Shown: in pieces, positions 23,749-59,548 of the stretch
How positions within the stretch are numbered: position 1 is the first letter of the stretch
Layout of the letters: every line of letters starts with the position of its first letter
Assembly: GCA_937124965.1 (NCBI GenBank)
Contig: CAKZLB010000016.1
Location: 88,712 to 152,711 of the forward strand
Direction: 5' to 3'
Source of the DNA: an uncultured Bacteroidota bacterium
GTDB taxonomy: Bacteria; Bacteroidota; Bacteroidia; NS11-12g; UBA9320
DNA: 64,000 nucleotides
Position numbers and translations under genes: made by a program
The notes under the pieces: generated by a model
Database searches by the model: none
What the model saw: the letters and a program-made list of their open reading frames with translations, nothing else
What the model was told of the DNA's origin: nothing

Positions 23749-24429
23749 ATGCATGAAACCCGTCCTAACACGACGGGTTTTTTGTTTTGTGTTCGTTGGT
23801 TATTGTCATTTTTCTGGCCACAAAAAATTGCAAGATCAAAACCAGGAGAGGAGTACTTGGAGCTTATTTTATATCGAGGACGAAAATTGGTCGACAGTAA
23901 AAATGCGAACTATAGTTATGGTAATTTACAAACCGCGTATATAGGGCTATTTCGTCAATTAGATATCGACTGGACTGCGTGTAATGATGTTTTGGTGCTT
24001 GGTTTCGGTGTTGGTGGAGTAAGTTCATTAATGCAGCAGAAAAATCCCTCATTAAGGCAAATTGGGGTTGAGTACAATTCACAAATGATTGAATGGTATA
24101 CAGACTTTTTTGTTCAAATCAATCAATTGCAGTTAGTGCACGAAGATGCTCACGAGTATGTAAAGTCATGCGAGATGTTTTTTGATGTGATTGTGGTCGA
24201 CTTGTTTACTGACTTATCGGTTGAACCTCGTTTTCAATCATCAGAGTTTCTTGCCTTAGTCAAAAAATGTTTAACAGCGAATGGAGTATTAATCTACAAT
24301 AAAGTGAGTAAGTCAAGTGAACAGAATCTAGAATATCAATCACTGGTATTGACCTGTTCTAGCCTTTTTCGTCGGGTCAAGGTAATTGAACAAATGGATA
24401 TAAATAAGTTCATCATCTGTAGAAAGTAG
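23749..24429 (+). CDS. Spermidine-synthase-like methyltransferase fold protein
   Basis: 226 residues from ATG 23749; TTG 23782 is an alternative start. The core has DVLVLGFGVGGVSSLMQQ (SAM-type nucleotide loop), an acidic QIGVEYNSQMIEWY, and FDVIVVDLFTD, as in the spermidine synthase/SAM methyltransferase family. The segment LVDSKNANYSYGNLQ is typical of Bacteroidota homologues. Whether it makes polyamines is unproven, because the catalytic Asp context is not the canonical one. The first codons coincide with a strong terminator hairpin (23756-23783) belonging to the preceding gene: either the true start is the TTG at the end of the T-tract, or translation runs through the terminator. Confidence 0.78.
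   Translation: MHETRPNTTGFLFCVRWLLSFFWPQKIARSKPGEEYLELILYRGRKLVDSKNANYSYGNLQTAYIGLFRQLDIDWTACNDVLVLGFGVGGVSSLMQQKNPSLRQIGVEYNSQMIEWYTDFFVQINQLQLVHEDAHEYVKSCEMFFDVIVVDLFTDLSVEPRFQSSEFLALVKKCLTANGVLIYNKVSKSSEQNLEYQSLVLTCSSLFRRVKVIEQMDINKFIICRK
23756..23783 (+). terminator. Intrinsic terminator inside the first codons of the spermidine-synthase-like gene
   Basis: A 9-bp perfect stem (AAACCCGTC / GACGGGTTT) with a 7-base loop and six T (23778-23783). It lies 27 bases after the T9SS gene stop and 5 bases after the ATG of the next reading frame. Confidence 0.85.
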
Positions 24430-30096: not shown

Positions 30097-31468
30097 AAGT
30101 GACTTTTAAACGTATATTTTTTACAGTTCCGCTGTTGTCGGTATCTAGAATTACACGACTAGGAGTAATCGGGTTGTCTGATGGAATGATTAGATACAAG
30201 CCTCTGTTGTTGTCAACTCCTGAGTTTAAGTAAGTGTCTAATAATAATTGAATATGTCTGTTAATCCCAAACGTATATGATTTAGAATCTTCATCATATG
30301 TTCCGCCGTAAGTGGTATAACCGTTCCATTGTGAATTTGGTGGCGCCAAAACATCAATTAGGTCTATGATAAATGCGTTAGAACCATCTTCCTCCGAAGG
30401 TTGCAGAAGTAATAATCTGTCTGGTGCTGGGAAATCATCAGAAGTAGAGTTAGCCTTTACTTTAAAAGTGATTTTTGCATCGTTTATGGCAATGGAGTTA
30501 CCGTCTTTAACTAGGTCATATAAGCCTCCAATGTCTATTTTTACTTTACTACCTCCCATGGCTTGCAAATACGTTTCTGAATAATGTACATTCGGATTAG
30601 ATATTTGATTTGTTATGGTTGGGTTTCTGTCTTCAATCCTATAGGTTGAAATATTCTGAGATTCTGCGTTGATTTCAAATTCTTTGATTAGGCCTTGGTT
30701 ATAATATATAACCAATTTAGAATTGTCAGAAGTTCTGTCAATTGGGATTATTTGACCTTTTCCGGAGCTTAGACTAGAGGTATTTGGAATTAGAGCAATA
30801 CCGTTTAAGTATTCAACAAAAACTTCATTGCTACCAAACTTACCGTTAGAGAAAAAGTCTTCTCCAAAATCATTGTTTAAAGGAATTCGAATTGTATTGA
30901 GCGTCCATTTCAGTTCTCCGGCTTCTTCATACCAAACGGTATCTGTTGAAGCGAGATTACCAGTCCATTTTCCAATTGCATTTGGTTGGATTTTTGGCTC
31001 GTAGTTAGAGTAATACTTGTTTTCAGAAAGGATTATTTCATCCATTCTAAATATGTCGAGTTCTACTTCAGAGTTCTCGTTACCGTAATTGGCAACTGAT
31101 GGCTTTCTGGCGAGAGAAAGTATTACAGAGTCTATTGTTGGGTTGGTTCCAAAATCAACATTTATTTCTCTCAGCAATACTTGCGTGTACATGTTTGCGG
31201 AAGATGTGCCAAATTCAGGGTCGTTGATGGCACCAAGCAATGTAGCACTTAACGAATCTATTTTTAGTGAATCTTCTTGTATAGTGTACGCAGTGATATC
31301 AAAAGAATCATACGCTACACTTGCGTAGTTGTTTCCTTGTGGGAGGAAATCCACACCTACTTCATCATTGTTTTTGCGACAAGATGAAAATATTATGGCT
31401 AGAATAGAAAGAAATAAGGCTGCCCTTTGGGCAGCCTTATTATTAGTTTGTAGACAAGATCGTGTCAT
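30083..31468 (-). CDS. DUF4270 lipoprotein
   Basis: 461 residues from ATG 31468; a GTG at 31501 would lengthen it inside the preceding gene. A signal peptide with lipobox IIFSSC is followed by DEVGVDFLPQGN. The body is beta-rich with LLREINVDFGTNPTIDSV and a C-terminal RLKVTYTKL, consistent with DUF4270, a Bacteroidota surface lipoprotein family of unknown role. The start lies within the end of the glycogen-synthase-like gene. A strong GC-rich hairpin is encoded within residues 11-17 of this protein. Confidence 0.82.
   Translation of the reverse strand: MTRSCLQTNNKAAQRAALFLSILAIIFSSCRKNNDEVGVDFLPQGNNYASVAYDSFDITAYTIQEDSLKIDSLSATLLGAINDPEFGTSSANMYTQVLLREINVDFGTNPTIDSVILSLARKPSVANYGNENSEVELDIFRMDEIILSENKYYSNYEPKIQPNAIGKWTGNLASTDTVWYEEAGELKWTLNTIRIPLNNDFGEDFFSNGKFGSNEVFVEYLNGIALIPNTSSLSSGKGQIIPIDRTSDNSKLVIYYNQGLIKEFEINAESQNISTYRIEDRNPTITNQISNPNVHYSETYLQAMGGSKVKIDIGGLYDLVKDGNSIAINDAKITFKVKANSTSDDFPAPDRLLLLQPSEEDGSNAFIIDLIDVLAPPNSQWNGYTTYGGTYDEDSKSYTFGINRHIQLLLDTYLNSGVDNNRGLYLIIPSDNPITPSRVILDTDNSGTVKNIRLKVTYTKL
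31416..31438 (-). terminator. Terminator-like hairpin inside the DUF4270 signal-peptide codons
   Basis: A 10-bp perfect stem AAGGCTGCCC / GGGCAGCCTT with a 3-base loop, starting 4 bases after the glycogen-synthase-like stop. The following TATTTCTTTC is only moderately T-rich. It is contained in the DUF4270 reading frame. Confidence 0.65.
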
Positions 31469-48457: not shown

Positions 48458-49911
48458 TTGAATTCTTTATTTAAAACCTTATCAAAAAGAGCATCAATTT
48501 TTTGTGGATCTTTATCAAATCGGTAAACTTCCACACTAAAAAACACTTGATTTATTTTACCAGCTTTGCGCCTTACCGCACCGACAACATTTGGGCCTTC
48601 CCATGCACCAAAAGTTGAGATTTGAGCAGTATAAATTGCTTCTCCGTCAATACTGGGTACAAAAGGATCAAGACCTAAGATTAGGTTTGTTGGTTGTAAA
48701 CTTGGCCATTCAGATGAAACACCAACTAAACTAGAATCACTGTTTACAACGGCTTGGCCACTTGTTGTACTTAATGTATCAATTGGAACGGCTCCTCTAA
48801 TTTCATTTGGGTCATATCCAGCAGGGAAGCTTGTAATTATAAAGGACTTTCCGCCTGTATTATTATAGTTTTGTAACACAGGAGACGCAAATTCTAACAA
48901 CAAACCTGATTGTCCCGTAATTGCATTACTGAATAAACTTTGATCACAGTTGAACACTACTTTGTCGTACAACTCAGTTAACAGCGAAAATGTTGGGTTC
49001 CAAAATTTTGGTTGATATTGACCGTTGTCTAGCGCAAAATCCACGGCGTCAAAAGCTCCGTAATTTCGTTGAACTAAGTCTTGATAAACCTTGTTTACCT
49101 GCGGTGGTTGCCCACCAATCAAAAGTAAATCAGAAACTTGCTTTTTTATGAATATTGTATTTGAAGTGTCTACAGCGCTTTCGCTACCAGCAAAATCAAT
49201 TACTTTTAGATAAAACACGTTTTCGTCATTGTTTTTTAAACCACTCAACGTTGTGCCTGCCGACGAAATATCCGTGTTGTAATAAATATTCGCATCAACT
49301 ATTCCATCTTGTTTTGAATCTGTTGGTCGTATACTTAGTAGAAATTTACTTCGATCAATTTCTGTCCAATCCCCATCATTTGCTTTGATTAAAGCCTTTA
49401 CCACGGTGTTCACTCCGTCAGGGTCATCAAATCTCCATCTAAATGTTACAATACTAAAAGCGGTATCTAAGGGAAACGTCTCTTCCACAATTTCAACTTC
49501 CGGCGGAGAGTTTCTCAAAGGCACTTTTAAATAAGCAGGCGATTGATCGGTAGTATTTTCATTGTCTATTGCTCGAACATAAAAATCAATGTCAGTGGTG
49601 TCTTGTCCAGCTGCAATGGGGAATTTGAAAGTGCTATCGCGACTTTCTGTGAATGTCCAAGTCTGCTGATCTAATGAGTATTCGTAGCCAATGACATAAC
49701 CATCTTGGTCTGTTCCGTACCACGATAAATAAACACTAGAGTTGAGTCTATTTTCTCCTGTCAGTTTTATTTCTTCAATAGAAATGTGTGTATCAGGAGG
49801 AAGGTTAGATACTGGTTGATCTTCCTTACATCCAGAAAAAAAAGATACACCAATAAGAGCCAGCATTACATATGCGGCAATTATTGGTGTACTATGTGTT
49901 TTGGTAAACAA
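48451..49911 (-). CDS. Surface lipoprotein with fibronectin/Ig-like modules
   Basis: 486 residues from TTG 49911; no upstream ATG exists between the previous stop and the signal peptide. The signal peptide ends in a lipobox FFSGC (Cys28). Residues about 45-250 contain two FN3-like modules (SVYLSWYGTDQDGYVIGYEYSLD; FRWRFDDPDGVNT). The rest (LLIGGQPPQVNKVYQDLV onward) is of unknown fold. It lies between the T9SS protein and the TonB receptor, overlapping the latter by 7 bases. A terminator-like hairpin is encoded within its first 25 codons. A substrate-capture role alongside the receptor is an inference from position. Confidence 0.68.
   Translation of the reverse strand: MFTKTHSTPIIAAYVMLALIGVSFFSGCKEDQPVSNLPPDTHISIEEIKLTGENRLNSSVYLSWYGTDQDGYVIGYEYSLDQQTWTFTESRDSTFKFPIAAGQDTTDIDFYVRAIDNENTTDQSPAYLKVPLRNSPPEVEIVEETFPLDTAFSIVTFRWRFDDPDGVNTVVKALIKANDGDWTEIDRSKFLLSIRPTDSKQDGIVDANIYYNTDISSAGTTLSGLKNNDENVFYLKVIDFAGSESAVDTSNTIFIKKQVSDLLLIGGQPPQVNKVYQDLVQRNYGAFDAVDFALDNGQYQPKFWNPTFSLLTELYDKVVFNCDQSLFSNAITGQSGLLLEFASPVLQNYNNTGGKSFIITSFPAGYDPNEIRGAVPIDTLSTTSGQAVVNSDSSLVGVSSEWPSLQPTNLILGLDPFVPSIDGEAIYTAQISTFGAWEGPNVVGAVRRKAGKINQVFFSVEVYRFDKDPQKIDALFDKVLNKEFNW
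49836..49891 (-). terminator. Terminator-like hairpin inside the lipoprotein signal-peptide codons
   Basis: On the minus strand TACACCAATAA (49891-49881) pairs perfectly over 11 bp with TTATTGGTGTA (49856-49846) around a 24-base loop, followed by TC and eight T (49843-49836). It starts 20 bases after the TTG start. The T-tract encodes Phe-Phe next to the lipobox. Confidence 0.7.
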
Positions 49912-55568: not shown

Positions 55569-56287
55569 TAATAGATATCGGAAATACCAGAGTGAAGGCG
55601 GCAGTCTTTATTAATAATGGAATTCATACGATACTCTATACCGAAAATGCTGATGATGAGTTATATAATAAACTTACTCAATATAAAATCCAAAAAGTAA
55701 TCATTAGTTCAGTGCGAACAGACCTTGAACGTGTTGTTGAGTTCTGGAAGTCGAAATATTCCGTTTTAGTGTTAGATCATCTTACTCCTCTGCCAATAGT
55801 AAATACGTATAAAACGCCTAAGACTTTAGGGAAAGACAGAATAGCCGCAGTTGTCGGTGCTCGATTTTTACATGAGAAAGGACCCCTTTTGAGTATTGAT
55901 ATCGGAACTTGCATTACGTATGATCTGCTCACAGATGACAATAATTATATTGGTGGCAGTATTAGTCCTGGAATCGAGTTGCGTTACAAGGCACTACATA
56001 CGTTTACCAGTGCACTACCTTTAGGCGGTCAGAAAGACATTGATTATTTGTATGGAGACGATACTGAAACTAGTTTGTCGACAGGGGTTATCAATGGTAT
56101 AACCCACGAAATTGACGGCTTTATATCCGCTTATGAAGAACAGTACCCGACCCTCAAAACATTAATTTGTGGAGGAGATGCAAGGTATTTTGTTAAACAT
56201 CTTAAAAAGAAGATATTCGCGAACCAAAATTTGGTGCTTTTAGGCCTGCACAAAATCTTATTATTTAATGAAAAAAACCTTAATTAA
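55559..56287 (+). CDS. coaX: Type III pantothenate kinase
   Basis: 242 residues. The ASKHA-fold signatures are MELVIDIGNTRVK (phosphate 1), TLGKDRIAAVVGAR, and LSIDIGTCITYDLL with the catalytic Asp. PGIELRYKALHTFTSALPL is also typical. It phosphorylates pantothenate, committing it to coenzyme A. The gene overlaps birA by 10 bases and the next outer-membrane gene by 20 bases. Confidence 0.94.
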   Translation: MELVIDIGNTRVKAAVFINNGIHTILYTENADDELYNKLTQYKIQKVIISSVRTDLERVVEFWKSKYSVLVLDHLTPLPIVNTYKTPKTLGKDRIAAVVGARFLHEKGPLLSIDIGTCITYDLLTDDNNYIGGSISPGIELRYKALHTFTSALPLGGQKDIDYLYGDDTETSLSTGVINGITHEIDGFISAYEEQYPTLKTLICGGDARYFVKHLKKKIFANQNLVLLGLHKILLFNEKNLN

Positions 56288-57590
56288 ATTGCTTGTTATT
56301 GGAACCTTGGGACTAGTCTCAAGTTCTGAGTTAGCCGGCCAGACGTCGCCTTATACTTTTGGTAGTTTAGGCTTGATGAAATCAAAAGGTTTCGTTCAGC
56401 ATGATTTGATGGGAGGCATATCATCTAATATGATATCTGCAAATGATTACTCAATGGTAAATCCTGCCTCATTAAGTCATATTGAGCATACAAATTTACA
56501 AACTGGGAGTTTTTTAAGTTTTATTGACCAACAATCTGCAACCAAACGTAACAATAATCGAGATGGAGATTTTGGATACTTTTCACTTGGTCTTCCATTA
56601 TCTGTAAAGAAAAAAGTAGGGTTTGGAGCTAGTTTAAATCGTTTCACGGCTCTTGACTATAGTATCCCCGGTTCTGGAATTGAGAACGGTGAATCGGTTA
56701 CAAATTTGTTTGCTGGAAAAGGCGGTTTGAGTCAGTTTACAACATCGTTTGGTGGTCAGCTAGTTGACGGGTTATCTTTCGGAGTTGGAGCATCATTCAT
56801 ATTTGGTAGCATAGAAGAAATTGTTGAAAAGCAATTTCCTGAAAGTCAAGATGTATTCAGTGTAAGGAATACGAGTGCAACGTTTTATTCTGGCGTAAAA
56901 TACAATTTCGGAGTCCAGTATAGTAGACAATTTAAAAAGGGGAGACAGGTGGTCGTCGGTGGACATTTCTCACCTTCCGTGAGTTTAGAAACTAGTCAAA
57001 CGCAACTAGTACAGACTTATAATTATCAAGGAGAATTTTTTGTTGACACGTTAGTCGAAAGAGCGGATGTGTCTGCAGCTCAAGAAATACCGACCCAATT
57101 TGGAGGCTCGTTGAGTTATGGAAAAAAGGAAGTGTGGAGTTTAGGCCTTGAATATAATGTTGCTCAATGGTCGAGTATTATTCCACGAGGGAATGACAAT
57201 ATGTATTTTGATCAAACCTCGATAGCTGTTGGTGGTTTTTGGCAAGTAAAAGAAGAAATGAATAGTCAACATTCTTCTAAAGCAGAAAAGTTTGCTGACT
57301 ACCTAAAGGTTTCCAGAATCTATTATGGATTCAGAACTGAATCTCTATATACAGGAGTAGTGAACAAAAAAGTTGACCAAATGGTATTTACCTTGGGCGT
57401 TGGTTTGCCATTAACTAGAACATATTCTATTGAAGGTGAAAAAAGTCGATTGACTAGCAGAATAAACATTGGACTAGAATATACGGTTAGAGGGAATACG
57501 GATCCTGGAATGATTCAAGAAAATATCCTTGGCATCAAATTTGGGTTAACTCTAACAGATAAATGGTTTATCAAAAGAAAGTATCAATAA
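56268..57590 (+). CDS. Outer-membrane beta-barrel protein, FadL/PorV-like
   Basis: 440 residues. A signal peptide (MKKTLIKLLVIG, ending near LAGQ) is followed by TFGSLGLMKSKGFVQHDLMGG and ANDYSMVNPASLSHI. The NPASL motif is typical of FadL/OmpP1 and PorV-type barrels in this phylum. Repeated amphipathic strands continue to the end (GLTLTDKWFIKRKYQ). The transported substrate, or whether it is a T9SS accessory barrel, cannot be decided. It overlaps coaX by 20 bases and is followed by the TPR gene after about 30 bases; homologues often sit in this coaX-lptC neighbourhood. Confidence 0.75.
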   Translation: MKKTLIKLLVIGTLGLVSSSELAGQTSPYTFGSLGLMKSKGFVQHDLMGGISSNMISANDYSMVNPASLSHIEHTNLQTGSFLSFIDQQSATKRNNNRDGDFGYFSLGLPLSVKKKVGFGASLNRFTALDYSIPGSGIENGESVTNLFAGKGGLSQFTTSFGGQLVDGLSFGVGASFIFGSIEEIVEKQFPESQDVFSVRNTSATFYSGVKYNFGVQYSRQFKKGRQVVVGGHFSPSVSLETSQTQLVQTYNYQGEFFVDTLVERADVSAAQEIPTQFGGSLSYGKKEVWSLGLEYNVAQWSSIIPRGNDNMYFDQTSIAVGGFWQVKEEMNSQHSSKAEKFADYLKVSRIYYGFRTESLYTGVVNKKVDQMVFTLGVGLPLTRTYSIEGEKSRLTSRINIGLEYTVRGNTDPGMIQENILGIKFGLTLTDKWFIKRKYQ

Positions 57591-57620
57591 GTATAAAAGT
57601 AAAATAAATTGAAAATTAAG

Positions 57621-58961
57621 ATGACAGCACTAAAAAAACTATGCACGGTAGTAATATTAACCTTAGCTGCCACATTTGCGTTCGGACAAGAAAACTGTGG
57701 AAGCTCGATCTATGGTTCAGACACTGTACTTGCTCAAAAAAATGAAGCAATGTTTAACCAATATTTTAAAGCAAAAGATTACGTTCAAGTATATCCATAC
57801 TGGGTTTATCTTTTTGAAAATGCACCTTGCGCGAGTAAGCGTATCACTTTTAACGGAGCATTTATCGCTAAAAAATATCTAATCTCCTTAAAGAAGAATA
57901 ATCCAGAAGAGTATGAAGCTCGAATGTCTGGCATCATTGATACAATTTTAATGACCTACGATATGCGCGTGAAGCACTGGGGAGATGAATATATCGTAAT
58001 GGCCAAAAAAGCTGTAGACATGTTTAAATTGAGACCAGATCTAAGAGATTCAGCCATGGGATTATATGCTTTGAGTGTTGAAAAGCTTGGAAACAAAACA
58101 GAATACAAAACACCATTGTATTACATGCAGGCCGCAATAACACAACACAAAATCGAAAAGTATAGTGCAGACTCTTTGTTTAATCTTTACTTTCAACTTC
58201 AAGATATCATCAGTCACAATTTAAAAAAAGGTGGGAAGATGAAATCGAAATGGGTTGCTTGTGATACGAACGTCACTAAAATGATGAGGCCTTACCTAAA
58301 CTGCGAGAAAATTACTGAATACTTTAAACCTCAAACCGATGCAGAACCTGAAAATGTTGAGTTGTTGAAGAAAGTATCAAATCTTTTGAATGTTGCTAAA
58401 TGTAACAGAGATGACTATGCATTAGAAATTGCAATGAAGGTTTACGAATTAAAACCAAGTTCAGAAGCGGCTTTATCTATTGCAAGAGCATACAAAGACA
58501 ATGGAAATGGAGCTGAAGCAATTAAGTGGTACAACAAAGGAGTTGCCGATGTTGCAGATGACTCTATTAAGGCTGATATCTATCAAACCATGGCAGCATT
58601 AGAATACAAGGCAGGAAACGTTTCTTCTGCTAAGTCTTATGCAAATAAAGTACTTGAATTAAACCCTAATAGTGGTGCGGCTCATTTGATTATTGCTTCA
58701 AGTTATGCGAAAAGTGTTAGTGCTTGTACAGCAGATGGAATTAATGGTTTAAGCGCATATTGGGCAGCTGTTGATAGAGCCGTAAAAGCTAAAACAGTTG
58801 ATCCAAGTGTTGAGGAGCAAGCAAACAAATTTATTGCTACATATAGAGCGTACTTTATAAAATCTGAGCAAGCTTTCTTCAAGAATTTCCCTGTTGCAGA
58901 AGGTGGAACATACACAGTTCCTTGTTTGGGAGTTTCGACAATCGTAAGATTTAACAAGTAA
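57621..58961 (+). CDS. Secreted TPR-repeat protein
   Basis: 446 residues from ATG 57621; a TTG at 57609 would add four residues before the signal peptide. The signal peptide ends near TFAFGQ. Residues about 255-390 have TPR-like helices (EIAMKVYELKPSSEAALSIARAYKDNGNGAEAIKWY; AALEYKAGNVSSAKSYANKVLELNPNSG). Probably periplasmic, and a scaffold for protein interactions. Lies between the barrel protein and lptC; the lptC start is 5 bases beyond its stop and overlaps a terminator-like hairpin. Confidence 0.75.
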   Translation: MTALKKLCTVVILTLAATFAFGQENCGSSIYGSDTVLAQKNEAMFNQYFKAKDYVQVYPYWVYLFENAPCASKRITFNGAFIAKKYLISLKKNNPEEYEARMSGIIDTILMTYDMRVKHWGDEYIVMAKKAVDMFKLRPDLRDSAMGLYALSVEKLGNKTEYKTPLYYMQAAITQHKIEKYSADSLFNLYFQLQDIISHNLKKGGKMKSKWVACDTNVTKMMRPYLNCEKITEYFKPQTDAEPENVELLKKVSNLLNVAKCNRDDYALEIAMKVYELKPSSEAALSIARAYKDNGNGAEAIKWYNKGVADVADDSIKADIYQTMAALEYKAGNVSSAKSYANKVLELNPNSGAAHLIIASSYAKSVSACTADGINGLSAYWAAVDRAVKAKTVDPSVEEQANKFIATYRAYFIKSEQAFFKNFPVAEGGTYTVPCLGVSTIVRFNK

Positions 58962-58966
58962 AAAAT

Positions 58967-59548
58967 ATGAGCCGGTTATTCAAGTTAGGCATTGCTTTGC
59001 TGGTAACCGGCTTTTTTGTGCAATGTCGGAAGGCAGATGTAACGGATTTCGAAGCTTTTGATAAAGACACAGAAGATTTAAGCGTTGAGCGTGTCGAAGA
59101 TGTAATCATACGTTATACCGATTCTGCAATATTGAAAGCAAAAATACACGCTCCTGAAATGATCCGATACCCAAACAAGGAAGAGCCTTATACTGAAATG
59201 CCTAAAGGGTTATTTGCAACGTTTTATGATTCAGATGGAAAAGAAGATAGCAAATTGTCTTCTGCCTATGGAATAAACTACGAAGCCAAGAAGTTAATTA
59301 AGCTAACCGACAGTGTTCGTGTTTACAATCGAAAAGGAGAGGAGCTTAAAAGCGAGGAGTTGTTTTGGGATCAAAAAGAAAAGAAAATTTATACAAATAA
59401 GTTTGTCCGAATTATTCGAAATGGAGAAACGTTACGGGGAGATGGATTCGAGAGTAATGAGAATTTTACTAAATATCGAATTTTGAAACCAGCGGGGCCA
59501 GTGGCAGTCCAAGATAATTTATTAGAAGACGATGAAGAAGTTCAATAA
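58967..59548 (+). CDS. lptC: LPS export periplasmic protein LptC, lipoprotein form
   Basis: 193 residues. A signal peptide with lipobox FFVQC replaces the inner-membrane anchor of proteobacterial LptC. The OstA/LptC-like beta-jellyroll has SVERVEDVIIRYTDSAILKAKIHAPEMIRY and LTDSVRVYNRKGEELKSEELFWDQKEKKIYTN, conserved in Bacteroidota LptC. It receives lipopolysaccharide from LptBFG and passes it to the LptA bridge. The hairpin at 58970-59017 overlaps its first 17 codons. The 3' end overlaps the next small gene by 17 bases. Confidence 0.87.
   Translation: MSRLFKLGIALLVTGFFVQCRKADVTDFEAFDKDTEDLSVERVEDVIIRYTDSAILKAKIHAPEMIRYPNKEEPYTEMPKGLFATFYDSDGKEDSKLSSAYGINYEAKKLIKLTDSVRVYNRKGEELKSEELFWDQKEKKIYTNKFVRIIRNGETLRGDGFESNENFTKYRILKPAGPVAVQDNLLEDDEEVQ
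58970..59017 (+). terminator. Terminator-like hairpin inside the lptC signal-peptide codons
   Basis: AGCCGGTTA (58970-58978) pairs perfectly with TAACCGGCT (59004-59012) around a 25-base loop, with six T at 59012-59017. The left arm begins right after the lptC ATG. The T-tract encodes Phe-Phe directly before the lipobox. Confidence 0.7.

Follow-up and report, generated by a model that had tools for sequence, protein, structure and literature searches.

A terminator-like hairpin in the signal-peptide codons of lptC across Bacteroidia, probably the terminator of the preceding TPR gene

The window analyzed here is a 64,000-nucleotide stretch of a contig from an uncultured Bacteroidota bacterium. 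In it, lptC follows the gene for a TPR-repeat protein almost end to end, and a hairpin with a T-tract occupies the first codons of lptC. LptC is normally essential for LPS export. The features of the locus are:

56268..57590, + strand: outer-membrane-protein-like gene (open reading frame); its homologue lies directly upstream of lptC in relatives lacking the TPR gene
57609..58961, + strand: TPR-repeat protein gene (open reading frame; TPR_14, E 4.7e-7), with the hairpin after its stop
58967..59548, + strand: lptC (PF06835, TIGR04409), with the lipoprotein signal peptide MSRLFKLGIALLVTGFFVQC
58970..58978, + strand: left arm AGCCGGTTA, in codons 2-4 (S-R-L)
58979..59003, + strand: the 25 nt that separate the two perfect arms, some of them paired in the fold
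59004..59012, + strand: right arm TAACCGGCT, within the V-T-G-F codons
59012..59017, + strand: T-tract TTTTTT, in the Phe-Phe codons ahead of V-Q-C

An earlier note on this DNA, made from its letters, had named the last gene lptC, and profile searches bear this out: the product matches PF06835 (E 6.6e-13) and TIGR04409 (E 3.2e-22, with 78.9 bits where 38 is the cut-off), and its N-terminus reads as a lipoprotein signal peptide. With its homologue followed by lptC in 159 of the 162 junctions examined across the class, the TPR protein is a possible LPS-export partner. When viral contigs were searched with a pattern for this protein, two stretches matched and no relative was confirmed; PADLOC found nothing. 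At L063 / L002 (G004) the gene for the TPR homologue is spread over more than one reading frame, by sequencing error or because the gene is broken.

The geometry that the earlier note described is correct. The lptC ATG is at 58967-58969, the left arm begins at the very next base, 58970, and the right arm runs into six T (59012-59017), the first of which doubles as its own final base. The arms AGCCGGTTA and TAACCGGCT form a 9-bp repeat, 100% complementary and 25 nt apart, in an element spanning 58970-59017; 8 nt separate the TPR stop from the left arm, and the right arm and T-tract encode V-T-G-F-F just ahead of V-Q-C. Folding lengthens the stem to about 58969-58980 with 59002-59013, an extension that the stem-plus-T score finds as well, and places a small hairpin within the 25-nt ‘loop’. 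The minimum free energy is -21.7 kcal/mol (z -3.28), with one of 200 shuffles as stable, and the stem-plus-T-tract score is -14.4, which none of 200 synonymous shuffles of the lptC start equals. The window thus holds what is expected of an intrinsic terminator (a stable stem, a T-tract immediately 3′ and a position after the end of a same-strand gene), and the analysis confirms that an element resembling an intrinsic terminator lies within the lptC codons for the lipoprotein signal peptide. Rfam 15 covariance models gave no match at E <= 1 across 58700-59300. We rejected a frameshift signal, since its stem would have to follow the T run and this one precedes it. A plain terminator scan of 9 kb returned seven sites, including a 5-bp inner hairpin that overlaps the lptC element, against 6.0 expected; as this was no excess, we compared relatives instead.

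Comparing lptC 5′ ends in relatives, as the earlier note had suggested, revealed hairpins with T-tracts in the same place and unrelated stems well beyond the window. LptC is present in 54 of the 58 nearest genomes searched. Among 56 loci in which lptC starts were read, a same-place hairpin and T-tract, with differing stems, occurs in most genera of the family, the genus g3 and most of the family f2 being clear exceptions. Of the 108 genomes of the order searched, 37 gave a match to the TPR protein at E 1e-8; nine f2 genomes are among them, and all seven g3 genomes lacked one.

For the class as a whole, TPR homologues were matched in 147 of 395 sampled genomes. The junctions read came from 121 of the 138 TPR-matching class genomes outside f1 and f2 (22 + 99), from the f1 and f2 loci and from four named Bacteroidales loci, 162 in total; three of them (L113, L114 and L194) had no lptC match at E 0.01, which leaves 159. 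Second copies (L031, L032, L043, L045, L047, L050 and L058-L087) were dropped before the counts, and L028 is uncounted: it has a hairpin at the lptC start, on a contig that holds 53 nt upstream, and the TPR gene is not visible. We called a hairpin at a simplified stem-plus-T-tract score of -8 or lower and used synonymous-codon shuffles of lptC as the null. This score was reached in 105 of the 159 TPR-lptC junctions, against a mean of 15.0 in the shuffles; a score of -12 or lower was reached in 90, against 6.0, and in 93 at most two of 200 shuffles were as good, the genomes being related and the counts therefore of non-independent events.

Of the 32 bins (31 families and one bin of the four named Bacteroidales loci), 22 contain hits and ten have none. 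The element is not universal: 54 junctions score above -8, and some families have few hits or none (f25 0/5, f53 0/4, f62 0/4, f52 2/10, f30 4/13). Stem sequences are unrelated between many families, as in the AAAGCGGC, ATCCCGG, AAAAAGGC and GCATAACAA types. The relatives also ease a doubt raised in the earlier note, that 25 nt is a long loop for a terminator: the loop is at most 9 nt in 85 of the 105 hits and at least 20 nt in 10.

Within genera, pairing is kept while sequence changes, clearly in the genus g10 and more weakly in the window's own. In 15 g10 sequences, aligned leaving out two rows with a shorter stem, 94.9% of cells are paired, and eight of 13 pairs and 30 cells have changed on both sides; controls in which the partners were slid by one to three columns gave at most two pairs and three cells. 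In the five species of the window's own genus three of ten pairs have changed on both sides. There, paired cells, doubly changed cells and the covariation score beat shuffles (2 of 500 as high for each), whereas doubly changed pairs and pair types do not (253 and 486 of 500 as high).

The hairpin goes with the upstream TPR gene. In all 21 lptC loci from genomes without a TPR match, the upstream neighbor is the outer-membrane-protein-like gene; its stop lies 8 nt or less from the called lptC start in 17 loci, at 32-38 nt in three and at 214 nt in one. None of these 21 loci has a hairpin, whether from 60 nt before the start or over the whole gap, as against 105 of 159 junctions with the TPR neighbor (Fisher P 1.6e-9, uncorrected for relatedness). 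At the TPR gene's own start a hairpin was found in 0 of 43.

In seven of the 105 hits the left arm begins ahead of the called lptC start; in the other 98 it lies at that start or beyond it. From the TPR stop it is a median of 29 nt away (IQR 24-33, sd 8.0, 105 junctions), and the median gap between that stop and the called lptC start is 4 nt; relative to the called start, the left arm follows at a median of 27 nt with an sd of 15.1, the start calls being noisy. The window hairpin, at 8 nt past the TPR stop, is closer than most of its relatives' hairpins. In 96 of 97 embedded cases no later start codon would leave 12 or more codons ahead of the lipobox Cys, so a full-length lptC mRNA must read through the element. 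The earlier note had allowed for expression from another promoter; for full-length LptC this escape fails, and we rejected a second promoter as a bypass because the element is inside the lptC ORF.

The explanation that we propose for the existence of the element, its conservation, covariation and synonymous-site selection, and its co-occurrence with the TPR gene is that hairpin and T-tract are the TPR gene's own intrinsic terminator, embedded in lptC, partly read through and acting as an obligatory attenuator. On the sequence evidence we consider this probable. The element would be a factor-independent transcription terminator that ends many TPR transcripts. TPR gene and lptC lie nearly end to end, and the terminator would need clearance from the ribosome finishing the TPR gene; for these two reasons, we infer, an element placed for the upstream gene falls inside lptC. 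It would thus sit in signal-peptide codons, where many hydrophobic residues interchange, and its right arm and T-tract would double as h-region codons (AFF, GMLF, TGFF) before the lipobox Cys. Since every full-length lptC transcript would have to read through, the element would act as a built-in attenuator and hold lptC mRNA at a lower level than TPR mRNA: RNA polymerase would terminate there, and read-through would set the lptC/TPR mRNA ratio. Ribosomes on the lptC start may raise read-through by covering the left arm, a suggestion to which we give slightly less than even credence.

A refinement of this reading would make the attenuator dependent on translation. Ribosomes starting lptC, or arriving from the TPR gene, would melt the left arm, so that lptC is transcribed only while it is translated, with feedback on LPS export. 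Terminator hairpins can in general be blocked by translating ribosomes (PMC12548453). The near-constant placement at or after the called lptC start, though a few genomes manage with an intergenic hairpin, points the same way, and the window's left arm, at the base after the ATG, would be under the initiating ribosome. However, the distance of the hairpin is tighter to the TPR stop than to the (noisily called) lptC start, and a left arm at the median position is outside the initiating ribosome. We regard the refinement as possible, with the balance somewhat against it.

It is unlikely that the hairpin serves to control lptC at the level of translation or mRNA processing rather than termination. 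A structure of -21.7 kcal/mol at the ATG would hinder initiation, as such a role would have it, but the stems share structure and not sequence, the hairpin is absent where lptC follows another gene, and the bases after the stem argue for a terminator. For these bases we took stems scoring -10 or lower, picked without regard to T (120 of the 159 junctions). In the 8 nt that follow the last G-C pair there are on average 5.77 T, compared with 4.79 expected from synonymous choice and a regional average of 2.69, although the count includes T that pairs with left-arm A, so that some of the surplus may be there for the stem. After the stem, Phe is TTT:TTC 113:10, against 502:240 in the rest of lptC, and Leu is CTT in 54 of 85 cases, against 210 of 1213. 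A T-run is needed by a terminator and not by a translation hairpin, so these T-rich synonyms speak against the latter. Shuffles, covariation and T-rich synonyms together uphold the earlier note's placing of a terminator in the first codons of lptC, as a selected terminator-like element, and the comparisons support the view that selection keeps such an element there.

It is very improbable that gene starts have been miscalled and that lptC begins past an ordinary intergenic terminator. A few loci do look like this: the terminator precedes the called start in L096 and L151, both doubtful hits with an intergenic element, and in L218, and perhaps in L101, a further doubtful hit in which an ATG straight after the hairpin could be the lptC start (in L125, also doubtful, the element lies after the lipobox Cys). 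In the window, however, only F-F-V-Q stands between hairpin and Cys, and the embedded cases, with the one exception, offer no usable later start. That the element is a by-product of protein sequence and codon bias, in which a Lys/Arg-rich and then Phe/Leu-rich signal peptide yields A/T repeats by chance, can be dismissed almost entirely: the shuffles still give 15 of 159, and Phe and Leu dictate part of the T-tract (4.79 of the 5.77 T), but 105 were observed, stems covary in g10 and in the window's own genus, and neither lptC without the TPR gene nor the TPR gene's own start has a hairpin.

The lptC element exceeds chance within its own genome: over 338 kb, the window included, three of 213 genes scored -8 or lower in their first 108 nt, lptC among them; this control took ATG starts only and missed the case at 49.8 kb, and a later control allowed GTG and TTG. 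The window holds two further examples:

31413..31441, - strand: second example, a 13-bp perfect hairpin and T-tract that occupy signal-peptide codons of a DUF4270 lipoprotein gene; a glycogen/starch synthase gene precedes that gene
49845..49892, - strand: third example, a hairpin with a 24-nt loop and T-tract in a lipoprotein signal peptide; abuts a gene with a T9SS sorting domain

The third of these, the 49,836 case of the earlier note, is indeed the same kind of arrangement as that at lptC. A terminator-like hairpin at 23751-23785 (+ strand), at an ORF whose called start is doubtful, is probably an ordinary intergenic one.

In samples from three genomes (338, 400 and 400 kb), strong embedded elements occur in 3 of 34, 1 of 45 and 1 of 43 lipoproteins, as found by a rough pattern, and two doubtful cases turned up among the other 744 ORFs, within their first 130 nt. 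The same samples (1.14 Mb) contain 10 more terminator-like elements deep inside ORFs and 135 that are intergenic or antisense. The enrichment in lipoproteins has a Fisher P of 0.0009, a biased figure in that all three cases from the genome under study lie in the window that prompted the analysis; the other two genomes alone offer too few cases. Homologues of the DUF4270 protein occur in 96 of 119 class genomes. Of 30 such loci that were read, 14 score -8 or lower, ten of them being classed as embedded, where shuffles would give 2.3; in this count the Cys finder failed on several rows, the window copy included, and two of the ten rest on doubtful starts. We suggest tentatively, and with more doubt than belief, a general device of Bacteroidia: the upstream gene's terminator would be written into the signal-peptide codons of a closely following lipoprotein, whose expression, and with it LPS export in the case of lptC, would depend on read-through controlled by translation of that same signal peptide, with lptC the class-wide case and DUF4270 after glycogen synthase the second.

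If the proposed explanation is true, coding sequence and a transcription stop signal are under joint selection in many families, and read-through limits how much lptC is expressed across a large part of Bacteroidia. Signal-peptide motifs like GMLF-SC and AFF-xxC would then be accounted for, and anyone recoding lipoprotein starts in Bacteroidia would have to reckon with a possible change in operon expression. The junctions offer a natural site with about a hundred variants at which one could directly test whether translation relieves intrinsic terminators inside ORFs. A search of open-licence papers returned none on lptC with a terminator in Bacteroidetes, on LptC with an intrinsic terminator or on DUF4270 with glycogen synthase.

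Among described systems, ORF-internal RNA 3′ ends in E. coli are alike in lying inside coding sequences. The available part of the paper ascribes ORF-internal sRNA ends mostly to RNase processing and one to intrinsic termination, and some 3′ ends in coding sequences to Rho (PMC7815308); it is in that part that no signal-peptide-embedded intrinsic terminator is described. The lptC element resembles an intrinsic (Rho-independent) terminator in its G+C-bearing stem followed by a T-tract, with structure kept and sequence free, and differs from one in lying inside the coding sequence of the next gene, where it doubles as signal-peptide codons. Leaky terminators internal to operons set gene stoichiometry, for example between rpsU and dnaG in E. 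coli. As in that case, an essential downstream gene would be expressed through read-through; the rpsU-dnaG terminator, however, lies between genes, whereas the lptC element is past the start codon, where no internal promoter could get around it. Ribosome-mediated transcription attenuation is known from leaders of the trp/his type and of the erm/bmr type. A single fold of 181 nt of the window keeps the two arms paired with each other, and no antiterminator hairpin was seen in it. As in the trp/his and erm/bmr attenuators, translation could choose between hairpin and read-through; unlike them, lptC would do so without a leader peptide, and the regulated ORF itself would carry the hairpin.
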